From a virus, in the IMG/VR virus record IMGVR_UViG_3300022821_000073, positions 1 through 32,484 of that record: a DNA stretch of 32,484 bases; one strand, written 5' to 3'. The position numbers and the translations under genes are program-made. Below are positions 1,783 to 5,040 of this stretch, one piece after another (within the stretch, counting starts at the first letter, position 1; every line of letters begins with the position of its first letter). The notes beneath the pieces are model-generated. The model worked only from the letters and a program-made list of their open reading frames with translations. It had not been told where the DNA came from and searched no databases.

Positions 1783-2403
1783 CTATTTAGTCACTTTATC
1801 ATACACCTCCTTCCACTCCTGCCGGAAGGATTTAAGCTTGTCGGCTGCTTCATCAGTGTCTACCTCCTTGCGCGTAATGCGTGTCACCATTGCCCTTTTC
1901 TTTTTCATCTTCACCCTGGGGTCGTAGATTACAAAGTCCAGCCACTCTAGGTCCGGGTTTACTAGAAAGTAGTTCGTCACCTGGCCCATGTACTCAGCAG
2001 GAATACCTCCGTCAGCCATGTACTTCACAAAGGTCTTAGTGCCGGGGCACTTCACCTCTACCGCACCAACCCATTTCTTGCCCTTCTTAACTAATCTATC
2101 AGGGCTTAGCGCTAGGTAGTCGTACTCCTCAGACCGACAAAAGCCTACGACTGATGTCTTTATCTTAGTCTGCTTCTCATACACCTCAACTGCCTCGTCC
2201 TCATGGTCAGTCCCCCACTGCATTGCTTCATTCACCCATAACTTGTCTTGCAACCCACTAACCTGCTCGGCTACTAGCTCATATATAAGCGTCTTGCGCA
2301 CTGCTGGGCTGCCTATAGCTGACTTCAGGCGGGTCCCTGTGATCATCCCTAGGCGCATTGCCAACCACTCCTCGCTACCTTGTGTTGTTTCGATTATTTT
2401 CAT
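1783..2403 (-). CDS. Lambda-exonuclease/YqaJ-type recombination nuclease
   Basis: A 206-residue protein of the YqaJ viral recombinase family (PD-(D/E)XK nucleases), which degrade one strand of duplex ends to make 3' tails for annealing. Motifs are in order: the N-terminal SEEWLAMRLGMITGT, where the family contacts the DNA end; an acidic WGTDHEDEA near residues 63-71; SPDRL with Asp102; EVKCP with Glu116 and Lys118; and a later Gln141 in the position of the family's conserved Gln. Length is close to lambda Exo (226). A partner annealing protein is not obvious next door, though the ssDNA-binding protein at 4.6 kb could cooperate. It starts 5 nt after the Dam-type gene and is probably co-transcribed with it. 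Confidence 0.88.
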   Translation of the reverse strand: MKIIETTQGSEEWLAMRLGMITGTRLKSAIGSPAVRKTLIYELVAEQVSGLQDKLWVNEAMQWGTDHEDEAVEVYEKQTKIKTSVVGFCRSEEYDYLALSPDRLVKKGKKWVGAVEVKCPGTKTFVKYMADGGIPAEYMGQVTNYFLVNPDLEWLDFVIYDPRVKMKKKRAMVTRITRKEVDTDEAADKLKSFRQEWKEVYDKVTK

Positions 2404-2408
2404 ATATA

Positions 2409-2828
2409 TTACATTACTATTACCATACTTCCTGACATACCACAGTTGTTTGTGACATATACACCCTTGGTATTTGTGCCTTTAAACTTCACTCTGCCCC
2501 GAAGGAAGCGTATCTCTTTTGCATGAGGCACGATGTAGTCGTGGTAGATAGCTGTGTCTGTTGATGCGGGTATGAGCAAAACACAAGTCTTGCCTTTTTT
2601 GCTTTCCTCAATAGCTCGCTTAATAAAAGCTTCTTTAAGGTGGCGTGTGTAGGGTGGGTTTACAAAGTTGCTTTGCCCCCACTCAATTAGTAGCCCATCG
2701 TTTTCAGGAGTAATTACCTCACACAAGGGGCAGGGGTCAAAGTCAAAATTAAACTCTTTGTGCAGTGGGTCGTATATATACTCAGGAGTTTCCCACTGGT
2801 CCCCTGCGTTTGTGTTTCGGTTTTTCAT
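2409..2828 (-). CDS. Phage DNA N6-adenine methyltransferase (Dam type)
   Basis: A 139-residue protein with the hallmarks of the phage Dam family: WETP near the N-terminus (residues 12-15), DPCP (31-34), and the catalytic NPPY (57-60). The family transfers a methyl group from SAM to adenine N6 and often protects phage DNA from restriction. The length is short but typical for the compact phage version. Its ATG overlaps the TGA of the cytosine-methyltransferase remnant (ATGA), showing that the two methyltransferase genes were once directly coupled. Target sequence unknown. Confidence 0.87.
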   Translation of the reverse strand: MKNRNTNAGDQWETPEYIYDPLHKEFNFDFDPCPLCEVITPENDGLLIEWGQSNFVNPPYTRHLKEAFIKRAIEESKKGKTCVLLIPASTDTAIYHDYIVPHAKEIRFLRGRVKFKGTNTKGVYVTNNCGMSGSMVIVM

Positions 2829-2896
2829 ATAAGTTTTTCCATAATGTCCCTAATTACATTTACCGTCACTGCGTTGCCGAGTTTTTTACAATACAT
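2825..2896 (-). pseudogene. Orphan 3' end of a cytosine-5 methyltransferase gene
   Basis: A 23-codon frame whose product contains KKLGNAVTVNVIRDIMEKLI. This is motif X and the C-terminus of a DNA cytosine-5 methyltransferase, closely parallel to VLGNAVTTNVIKDIVCQLLK at the end of the intact gene just upstream. At DNA level the two copies are clearly diverged, so this is not a fresh duplication. The HNH gene separates it from the intact methyltransferase. Its TGA overlaps the Dam-type ATG. The best reading is a leftover of the original methyltransferase 3' end after HNH insertion. It could still be translated from its ATG inside the HNH tail. Confidence 0.8.
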
Positions 2897-3362
2897 ACTG
2901 TCCGTTCTTAAACTTTATAGTCCCATCTTTTATTAGTTGTCTTACAACTGAACTGAGTGATATATGTAGTTGTTGGTGGTGTGAATTATTTTTACAGAGA
3001 AACAAGTTGTCTATAGAGTAATTCATTCTGTCTGTATCGATGTGATGTACTGGTTCACTACGCTTTGGGGTTCTTCCTATATGTTTTTCCATTTCTAACA
3101 CATGCTTGAACACGTACCCTATAGCACTAGATCGTGGGTGTGTAGGTAAATGAGAAACAGGATAGCCTGTTTTAATAACTTCTCCGTTTCTTTTTCTATT
3201 ACGACTATTTGCACCTGATAGTGGCTTTGTTATACCTAAACGCTTTAAGTGCCGACATACTGTTGTTCTTGTACACCCATATTTCTCAGCTAATTCTCCG
3301 CTACTCATTGTCTGGTATTCTTTTTTAAGTTGTGTATCGTTTGTTATTTTAGAAGCTGACAT
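2886..3362 (-). CDS. HNH homing-type endonuclease
   Basis: A 158-residue protein with an N-terminal helix-turn-helix (SSGELAEKYGCTRTTVCRHL, residues 20-39) and a C-terminal HNH nuclease core. The core has His106-His107 in PVHHIDTDRMNY, Asn119 in IDNL, and His128-His129 in NNSHHQQLH. This form (HTH plus HNH) is common in free-standing phage homing endonucleases, which cut a recipient genome so that their own gene is copied in. Its first 19 nt overlap the end of the cytosine methyltransferase gene, and its last codons overlap the orphan methyltransferase tail. The start at 3362 is used; ATG at codon 19 is an alternative. The target is presumably the uninvaded methyltransferase gene. Confidence 0.85.
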   Translation of the reverse strand: MSASKITNDTQLKKEYQTMSSGELAEKYGCTRTTVCRHLKRLGITKPLSGANSRNRKRNGEVIKTGYPVSHLPTHPRSSAIGYVFKHVLEMEKHIGRTPKRSEPVHHIDTDRMNYSIDNLFLCKNNSHHQQLHISLSSVVRQLIKDGTIKFKNGQYVL

Positions 3363-4447
3363 ACAATATCTTTTATTACGTTAGTAGTTACAGCATTTCC
3401 TAAAACTTTATAACGCTGTGTATCTGATATTAACACCTCTTGACCTTGGTCGTCAACTCCATACTTGGTGAAATGGTCTGGAAATCCCTGGAGTCGTTCG
3501 CACTCGGTTGGGGTTAGTCTTCTGATAGCGTTCACTACAGGAGGCTCTTTGTAGCTTGTCGCTGTAATGGCTACACTATTCTCGTAGTCTTTCTTGTAAT
3601 TCATCATCTTTGGGTTTTGTATAAACGGCTGTCTATTTCCTCCCTGCATAGTGTTAAGGGTAGGGCTTAGTCCGTCTGTTCCGTACACTCTGTCGTTTGA
3701 GTGGGTTGGTTGGTTGAGCTGTACTATTTCTTGTGCATTGAGTTTACTTTCAGTGACATACGTTCCGTTTGCTTGCCCTCCGTAGTAACGGGTGGTAAGG
3801 GTGTTTGAATGTTGTCCCGATAACTGAGTAACCGCTTCTGAATCGTCTCCGAAAGGAAATACTTCGGGTCTACGTGTTCCTCGAGAATGTCCGATAATGA
3901 ACACTCTCTCTCTGTTCTGTGGGACTCCGTGATTTTTGCTGTTAATAATTTGCCATTGGACATCGTACCGAAGCTCATCAAGCGTTGCGATGATGGTACG
4001 GAATGTGTTCCCTTTGTCGTGAGATAACAACCCTTTAACGTTCTCAAACATAAAAAGGCGTGGTTGTTTTTCCCGAAGTATCCGTGCAAGCTCGAAGAAC
4101 ATTGTTCCGCGAGTGTCCTCAAATCCTCCTCTGTTTCCTGCGATGCTAAACGCTTGGCAAGGGAAGCCACCCACCAAGAGGTCAAAGTCTGGTAATGTTT
4201 TTTCATTGATTTCTGTGATGTCTCCATAGTTTTTGTGGTTAGGGAAGTGCTTTTGATAAATTGAGGTGGCGTACTTGTCAATTTCGGAGTAACCAACACA
4301 AGTAAACCTGTCCTGTGACTCCTGAGTGTCGGGCATAGTTTCTCGTAATACCTCACTCCCGTTCCGTATGTTGGGTCGATTATCATATGCCTGTTTTATT
4401 CCTAATTCAAATCCTCCTATTCCAGAGAATGTACTAAAGTATTTCAT
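3344..4447 (-). CDS. DNA (cytosine-5) methyltransferase
   Basis: A complete 367-residue C5 methyltransferase that would methylate cytosine in a specific site using SAM. Motif I FSGIGGFE (7-14), motif IV GGFPCQAFS with catalytic Cys97, motif VI ENV (135-137), motif VIII QNRERVFI (177-184), motif IX RRLTPTECERLQGFP (309-323) and motif X LGNAVT (349-354) are all present. The region from about 190 to 308 is the target-recognition domain and has the SPTLNTMQGGNRQP pattern seen in phage enzymes. No cognate restriction enzyme is nearby, so it is an orphan, probably anti-restriction. It heads a transcript: TAGTAT lies 6 nt before the ATG. Its tail appears to have arrived with, or been repaired around, the HNH gene. 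Confidence 0.92.
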   Translation of the reverse strand: MKYFSTFSGIGGFELGIKQAYDNRPNIRNGSEVLRETMPDTQESQDRFTCVGYSEIDKYATSIYQKHFPNHKNYGDITEINEKTLPDFDLLVGGFPCQAFSIAGNRGGFEDTRGTMFFELARILREKQPRLFMFENVKGLLSHDKGNTFRTIIATLDELRYDVQWQIINSKNHGVPQNRERVFIIGHSRGTRRPEVFPFGDDSEAVTQLSGQHSNTLTTRYYGGQANGTYVTESKLNAQEIVQLNQPTHSNDRVYGTDGLSPTLNTMQGGNRQPFIQNPKMMNYKKDYENSVAITATSYKEPPVVNAIRRLTPTECERLQGFPDHFTKYGVDDQGQEVLISDTQRYKVLGNAVTTNVIKDIVCQLLK

Positions 4448-4453
4448 CCCTAA

Positions 4454-4462
4454 ATACTACCA
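4454..4462 (-). promoter_or_regulatory. Extended -10 promoter of the methyltransferase operon
   Basis: Minus-strand TGGTAGTAT, then TTAGGG and the methyltransferase ATG. The -10 hexamer is 6 nt from the start codon, so the mRNA should begin at the ATG. The AGGG could also act as a very close Shine-Dalgarno only if transcription started further upstream. Confidence 0.5.
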
Positions 4463-4503
4463 CACACTATCCACACCCCCTCCCTCGCTATCCACAGGGG
4501 CTT

Positions 4504-4512
4504 TGCTATACT
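4504..4512 (+). promoter_or_regulatory. Extended -10 promoter of the ssDNA-binding protein gene
   Basis: Plus-strand TGCTATACT, divergent from the methyltransferase promoter about 42 nt away. It would give a leader of roughly 36 nt, AT-rich and without a Shine-Dalgarno. Weaker alternatives (TACAAT just before the ATG) are too close to the start codon to be the -10. Confidence 0.45.
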
Positions 4513-4554
4513 GTTTGGGTAGGCAGATAATAATCAATCTAAAATATACAATAT

Positions 4555-5040
4555 ATGACACCCGATTTTTCACAGTTTAAAGCACAAAGCCTTAGTCGAC
4601 CAATGGATGCAGCCTGGAGCAATGGCTTTGCAGTATTCGAGAAGAAAGGTGACAAGGTAGAAGGTATCCTACGAGATGTGTTCTTCAAAAAGGCAGAAGG
4701 CATGTTTAAGGAACAGCGTGGATTCACACTAGAACTTTCAGACGGGAAACTTAAGAACGTTTCAATAAAGCGTGAACCATACTTCGCAATCCGTGCTACC
4801 AACGACGTAAAGCTAGGAGACTTCCTATCTATTGAGCTAACAGAACTACGCCCATCGAAGAGCACTGGATTCAAGCCAGCTAAAATCTTTGCGTTTACAT
4901 CAGGTACTCTTGATGAGAACGCAGGCAACGCTACAGTAAAGGAACTAGAAGCTAAGGACATGGCTGCTGAGGGAGTAGCAGACACTTCCCAAGAAGAAAA
5001 CCGAGCTGACACACCAGACGCTGAAGCAGCACCTTTCTAA
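4555..5040 (+). CDS. Probable single-stranded DNA-binding protein
   Basis: A 161-residue protein. The first 115 residues look like a beta-rich OB-type domain (VEGILRDVFFKK, RGFTLELSDGKLKNVSIKR, GDFLSIELTELRPS). The tail is acidic and low-complexity (AADTS-, EEN- and DAE-rich), ending in AAPF. An acidic tail finishing with Pro-Phe is the partner-binding hallmark of bacterial and many phage SSBs, which coat ssDNA and recruit replication and repair proteins. It is the only convincing plus-strand gene in the left arm, bracketed by its own promoter and a 14-bp terminator shared with the converging dNMP kinase operon. The acidic tail and neighbours support the call; the family itself is inferred from pattern, not from a recognised signature. 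Confidence 0.6.
   Translation: MTPDFSQFKAQSLSRPMDAAWSNGFAVFEKKGDKVEGILRDVFFKKAEGMFKEQRGFTLELSDGKLKNVSIKREPYFAIRATNDVKLGDFLSIELTELRPSKSTGFKPAKIFAFTSGTLDENAGNATVKELEAKDMAAEGVADTSQEENRADTPDAEAAPF

Follow-up and report, generated by a model that had tools for sequence, protein, structure and literature searches.

A phage HNH endonuclease gene that probably moves together with a replacement 3' end of the cytosine methyltransferase gene beside it

An HNH endonuclease gene of a phage and the tail of the C5-cytosine DNA methyltransferase (MTase) gene directly upstream of it probably constitute one mobile, free-standing homing element. The window, that is, the whole stretch of DNA analysed, is a virus record 32,484 bases long. 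Its MTase gene is intact and runs into the HNH gene, while a second MTase tail is found behind the HNH gene, just before a Dam-family gene. The features of the locus are the following:

2409–2828, minus strand: Dam-family N6-adenine methyltransferase gene (PF05869, 7.6e-20; protein 100% identical in L003, 87% in L004)
2825–2887, minus strand: orphan MTase tail of 20 codons, KKLGNAVTVNVIRDIMEKLI and a stop, apparently displaced and ancestral (reading frame; tail comparison with HNH-free MTases)
2847–2853, minus strand: copy 1 of the 7-bp repeat TTAGGGA, within the orphan (deletion endpoint in L003)
2886–3362, minus strand: HNH_3 endonuclease gene of 158 amino acids with an N-terminal helix-turn-helix, proposed homing endonuclease (PF13392, 4.6e-09; PF08279, HTH_11, 5.1e-06)
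3344–4447, minus strand: C5-cytosine DNA methyltransferase, intact, 367 amino acids, chimeric by the mosaic test (open reading frame; PF00145, DNA_methylase, E 2.3e-81, residues 1–365)
3347–3463, minus strand, left edge approximate: putative replacement tail of the MTase, about residues 329–367, with the end LISDTQRYKVLGNAVTTNVIKDIVCQLLK; accompanies the HNH gene
3427–3456, minus strand: weak promoter-like TTGACG-N18-TAATAT (9/12 match) inside the replacement tail, possibly for the HNH gene
4447–4453, minus strand: copy 2 of TTAGGGA, comprising MTase leader and the first base of the MTase ATG (deletion endpoint in L003)

The MTase (open reading frame 4447 to 3344, minus strand) ends in VLGNAVTTNVIKDIVCQLLK, and its last 19 nt overlap the HNH gene. 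The latter is a reading frame of its own, complete with start and stop, and the MTase likewise ends in a separate stop, so that the HNH gene is free-standing. The HNH stop, TAA, lies at the junction with the displaced tail, and two of its A's also belong to the first Lys codon of the orphan, whose TGA (2827..2825) in turn overlaps the ATG of the Dam gene (2828..2826). This layout of an MTase, an overlapping HNH gene, an orphan tail and a TGA/ATG overlap had been described in the first-pass annotation, and it is confirmed by the open reading frames, by Pfam and by tblastx, which matches the DNA upstream of the HNH gene with that downstream of it at E = 6e-06 and 9e-06 in two runs. From the GN residues onward, the live tail and the orphan are identical at 30 of 51 nt, which is compatible with the predicted resistance of the live tail.

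The HNH_3 domain (PF13392) scores 36.2 bits against a curated cut-off of 24.8, and the gene matches PHROG families of HNH endonucleases (best 2.6e-16). HNH_3 is also recognized at E 0.001 or better in all four of the proteins compared (window, L002, L184 and L272). When the HNH proteins of the window and of L184 were compared by tblastn with 50,697 phage records, all relatives were below 60% identity. The HNH gene gave no matches in plasmids, its profile retrieved no relatives from genome contigs, and a profile search of the PDB gave no matches at E 0.1. An AlphaFold2 model based on a 4-row alignment is of low confidence (mean pLDDT 56.3).

The sole close relative of the HNH gene found among viral contigs, with 72% identity, is located in L002, where it too lies directly 3' of an MTase. 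That MTase ends in ISDTQRYKVLGNAVTTNVIKDIVCQLLK, and its last 27 residues are identical to those of the window MTase, while the MTase bodies closest to that of the window belong to the HNH-free loci L083–L085. Over residues 1–314 the window MTase is 79% identical in amino acids to L083 and 60% to L002, whereas over residues 329–367 it is 92% identical to L002. Within the replacement tail 36 of 39 residues match L002, compared with 20/31 aligned residues for L083, 19/29 for L084 and 22/38 for L085. A breakpoint scan of the maximum-chi-square style with 2000 permutations places the change of allegiance from L083 to L002 between residues 314 and 317 (0/2000 permutations), the L083:L002 support being 50:11 before the switch and 2:13 after it (Fisher p 1.2e-06). 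The same scan places the switch at 328/329 with L085 (2/2000) and at 256/257 with L084 (1/2000). Codon usage at identical residues changes in the same region: window and L083 have the same codon at 142/214 such positions in the body and 6/18 in the tail, and window and L002 at 80/160 and 27/36, respectively. As judged from these comparisons, the window MTase is a mosaic, and its live tail appears to be foreign, to go with the HNH gene and to be common to the HNH-bearing MTase of L002.

The tree of MTase bodies is poorly resolved. A clade of the window and L002 is not rejected, with p-AU of 0.772 (74 rows) and 0.238 (16 rows), and with 74 rows the tree constrained to this clade scored even higher; the mosaicism therefore rests on the breakpoint and codon tests. 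Tails of the TTNVI type are also present in HNH-free MTases, where they account for 17 of 131 tails.

Between the window and L002 the share of identical codons is higher in the tail (27/36) than in the HNH gene (48/109, p 0.002), which is not what a simple co-transfer of the two would predict. The extra conservation of the tail could be explained by a regulatory role of its DNA for the HNH gene, or by later conversion. A promoter-like TTGACA-N18-TAATAT is present in the L002 tail, and TTGATA-N17-TATAAT is found just before the HNH gene of L272; in the window region four promoter-like sites were found where 2.1 were expected, the counts being near or moderately above those of shuffled sequences. 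Directly upstream of the L002 MTase, at 2641–3042, is an extra open reading frame that is HNH-like by eye, with CxxC pairs, and the L002 MTase may thus be flanked by two nuclease genes.

The orphan, and not the live tail, resembles the tails of HNH-free relatives and is of the ancestral type. Tails were detected in 131 of 181 HNH-free loci. Counted from GN, the orphan agrees with five HNH-free MTase tails at 13–14 of 17 amino acids, as compared with 10–12 of 17 for the live tail. Among the 20 HNH-free MTases closest to the window by body similarity, in an ungapped comparison, the orphan is the better match in 14, the worse in three and tied in three, as expected from the first-pass prediction that uninvaded MTase tails would match the orphan. 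An orphan is absent in L002, which hence does not contain the proposed right-hand homology arm.

The combination of an HNH gene, a replacement tail and a displaced tail, previously described for the window, recurs in the metagenomic phage contigs L184, L272 and L274. In L184 the MTase tail ends in NAVSVPVISAIVKRLIV and a stop, and the HNH gene (1607–2092) is followed by (Y)NAVTVNVIKEIISKLI and a stop, which overlaps the next ATG. The corresponding MTase tail in L272 is KMAGNAVSVPVIKAIVKRLIV, with the HNH gene at 3001–3486 and the orphan MCGNAVTVNVIKEIVKRLI; in L274 these are KMLGNAVSVPVITFLGKQILLSLGGDYGSQ, 2908–3438 and LGNATTVNVIEFLGYKILKCLEEN, each of the four tails being closed by a stop. 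In comparisons with the 20 closest HNH-free relatives, the orphan prevailed over the live tail by 18:2 in L184, 20:0 in L272 and 16:1 in L274, with the exception that the closest single body relative of L274, L188, matches the live tail better. L184 and L272 have in common a second tail type, NAVSVPVIxAIVKRLIV, and their HNH genes are 77% identical. All five top members of the HNH family (window, L002, L184, L272 and L274) are placed 3' of an MTase, and a displaced tail is present in four of them; the next member by score, L277, has no adjoining MTase. The MTase body of L184 (489–1570) is split across two frames, by a frameshift or a sequencing error.

In the proposed mechanism, the HNH protein would cut or nick MTase alleles within the conserved KxLGNAVTVNV codons near their 3' end, and repair would copy the tail and the HNH gene of the element from a co-infecting phage. 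The recipient would gain an MTase 3' end that works but is spelled differently; this end would keep the MTase whole and active as a chimera and at the same time remove the cut site, so that the replacement tail would be resistant. The recipient's own old 3' end would be stranded behind the HNH gene as the orphan, and this orphan could in turn provide the right-hand homology arm when the element homes again in a co-infection, as proposed for the yeast WHO elements.

The relatives of the window at the junction with dam were retrieved with the Dam protein as bait, which gave 80 loci, four of them informative (L003, L004, L049 and L022). L003 is 97.7% identical to the window across 2,877 alignment columns and its Dam protein is identical, yet its MTase is absent: the MTase leader is joined to the last codons of the orphan via the 7-bp repeat TTAGGGA (window 4447–4453 and 2847–2853). 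L003 has lost the MTase and the HNH gene by a deletion of 1,600 bp between the repeats, with the end of the orphan kept; the corresponding stretch of L003 is at its positions 1–110. The MTase is also absent in L004 (Dam 87% identical), where the leader runs directly into dam. In L049 some 140 nt lie between the MTase stop and a dam with 61% identity, and L022 has an MTase tail fragment upstream of dam. None of the relatives found has an uninvaded MTase that runs directly into a dam of the window type, the nearest ones, L003 and L004, having no MTase. The first-pass account, in which the HNH gene was inserted at motif X together with a replacement tail and the ancestral dcm-dam junction persisted downstream of it, is borne out in one part: HNH-free tails match the orphan, the foreign tail is common to the HNH-bearing L002, and the layout recurs. 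The continuous ancestral junction, in contrast, was found in none of these few relatives.

Several other histories could leave a similar locus. Error-prone repair with a wide conversion tract might have attached an ordinary free-standing HNH gene to the 3' side of the MTase, in which case the tail would not be part of a recurrently moving unit. Such a one-time capture is unlikely: the same tail is found beside the same HNH gene in two otherwise different MTase bodies, those of the window and L002, and the second tail type is likewise common to two loci, L184 and L272, with similar HNH genes, even though L002 is without an orphan and the orphans begin at varying points (before KKL in the window, at MCG in L272, within GN in L184 and before LGN in L274), as would be the case with repair errors. 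It is less probable still that recombination within the conserved end motif exchanged the old MTase for a whole block of MTase and HNH genes of another phage and left the old end behind. The orphan does start exactly in this motif, and the body tree does not reject the grouping of the window with L002; however, the window body is nearest to HNH-free MTases (79% as against 60% for L002 over residues 1–314), and the breakpoint is located inside the MTase gene.

The orphan might also be the remnant of a second, separate MTase that was removed when the HNH gene arrived. Tandem motif-X tails do exist in three (L259, L264 and L265) of the 130 HNH-free MTase loci in which a tail was detectable; in L259 and L264 the second tail is part of another complete MTase, and L265 has the same 866-nt spacing. 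These second tails are, however, of a different type (GNSVIVPI) from the first, while the four orphans resemble the tail expected of the adjoining body and each starts at the motif, which makes a tandem origin very improbable. Hardly any weight can be given to an intron or alternative-tail device, in which the insert would be spliced out to make the orphan the real end and the upstream tail would be translated from unspliced mRNA only. Each tail has a usable reading frame and the orphan shows no decay, but Rfam gives no matches in L001, L002, L184, L272, L125 and L003, and from the MTase stop to the orphan the window consists entirely of HNH coding sequence and thus has no room for a ribozyme core. 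No group I intron is detected at the Rfam gathering score in these six loci, and an intein is ruled out by the stop codons of the MTase and the HNH gene. The joint movement of the HNH gene with the MTase tail remains the preferred reading.

Duplicated gene ends were also sought more widely, by tblastx of the DNA on either side of the HNH gene in 81 non-duplicate HNH loci. Eight of them gave matches, which represent recognisable gene ends in five loci (window, L272, L274, L292 and L317) and are low-complexity in L335, L336 and L318. L184, which was found by eye, was missed because its orphan is short. The same test on control reading frames gave matches in 3 of 128, each low-complexity or stop-containing and with no recognisable gene end. 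A regular expression for motif X revealed no further orphans in the first 270 loci, although this pattern would also miss those of L184 and L274. End duplication is seen in none of the 12 isolate phage loci (L353–L363, n = 11, and L105). In the Omegavirus mycobacteriophages L105–L107, a 35%-identical HNH is placed within the DNA methylase region in a different layout; one of these records carries the remark that it was not possible to define the intron boundaries.

What looks like the mirror image of the tail swap, at the head of a gene, is seen in two HNH loci that are more distant. In L292 (2623–3713), the HNH gene (2677–3267) lies between an orphan head, which includes IMGVDPGMIGAV, and an intact RuvC-like gene whose start includes IMGVDPGISGAV. 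In L317 (1818–3394), the HNH gene (2833–3324, plus strand) is antisense; on one side of it, on the minus strand, is an orphan MTase head, MKTHLDLFSGIGGFAIAAQACGYTTP, and on the other an intact MTase (2813..1818, minus strand) that starts with MQRRATHLDLFSGIGGFAIAAQNCGYET; the duplication of the head is detected by tblastx at 5.6e-13. A similar HNH gene adjoins an MTase head in L302, where an orphan is absent. On balance, end-swapping HNH homing genes may well form a general class in phages, each with a spare resistant copy of a host-gene end, which would act at either end of the gene: at C5-MTase 3' tails (window, L184, L272 and L274), at a C5-MTase 5' head with an antisense HNH gene (L317) and at a RuvC-like resolvase 5' head (L292).

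The arrangement resembles that of the WHO elements at FBA1 of Torulaspora and Lachancea, where, in the published account, an endonuclease gene is located behind a full-length host gene with a swapped 3' end, and a displaced 3' fragment of the host gene lies downstream (PMC7282813), as it does in the window, L184, L272 and L274 but not in L002. The WHO unit is described there as the WHO gene with the resistance-conferring 3' region upstream, the downstream fragment being a second homology region, and the FBA1 3' end is exchanged at every homing event (PMC7282813). The WHO proteins, however, are nucleases of the intein/HO type with zinc fingers, which reside in yeast nuclear genomes and for which allele-specific cleavage has been shown (PMC7282813), whereas the present genes encode HNH_3 and helix-turn-helix domains and are found in phage genomes with an MTase as the presumed target. 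No HO/VDE-related nuclease with a zinc finger is indicated by Pfam, which gives HNH_3 and helix-turn-helix families only; the phage element would thus work like a WHO element and is not a member of the WHO family.

A similar likeness exists to the mORFs of fungal mitochondria (atp6, atp9, cox2 and nad3 of Glomus, atp6 of Allomyces), in which, as reported, the host gene carries a foreign C-terminal end, an endonuclease ORF is present, and the native C-terminal end is left downstream and clusters with relatives (PMC3630166). The endonuclease named in that account is of the LAGLIDADG type (atp6) and the host genes are those of eukaryote mitochondria (PMC3630166), unlike the window, which is a virus record.

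Phage methylases that conceal an HNH gene in another frame, the ShiLan type, have already been published; in the description given, the insert does not interrupt the methylase frame, the HNH gene is out of frame, and neither a replaced end nor an orphan is mentioned (PMC11855218). The window MTase has its stop at 3344, after an overlap of 19 nt with the HNH gene, and the orphan is separate. L125 has a continuous MTase reading frame (3001–4659) with an HNH gene (4029–4571) nested in another frame, and looks like the ShiLan type. As a small free-standing HNH gene, that of the window is also like the free-standing HNH homing endonucleases of Skunavirus (PMC12724721) and of ICP1-like phages (PMC10448857). 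For Skunavirus the cut sequence of the recipient is assumed to be replaced by that of the donor (PMC12724721), and the available portions of both descriptions are without a duplicated or displaced host-gene end (PMC12724721, PMC10448857). The search, confined to the open-access literature, gave no report of phage homing genes that exchange the end of their host gene.

As a rule, a homing gene inserted in coding sequence depends on an intron or intein if its host gene is to stay functional. A third solution would be end-swapping, which in the open-access literature found, as far as these accounts go, had been described only in yeast nuclei and fungal mitochondria. Its apparent presence in phages, with an unrelated nuclease family, suggests that end-swapping arises convergently where a homing enzyme targets a conserved gene end, and it would provide a concrete cause of chimeric phage genes. 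If the general class is real, repeated homing would, with no splicing involved, keep rewriting conserved phage genes at their ends. A phage system would also open the WHO-type model, with resistance by recoding and the orphan as a homology arm, to simple co-infection tests.
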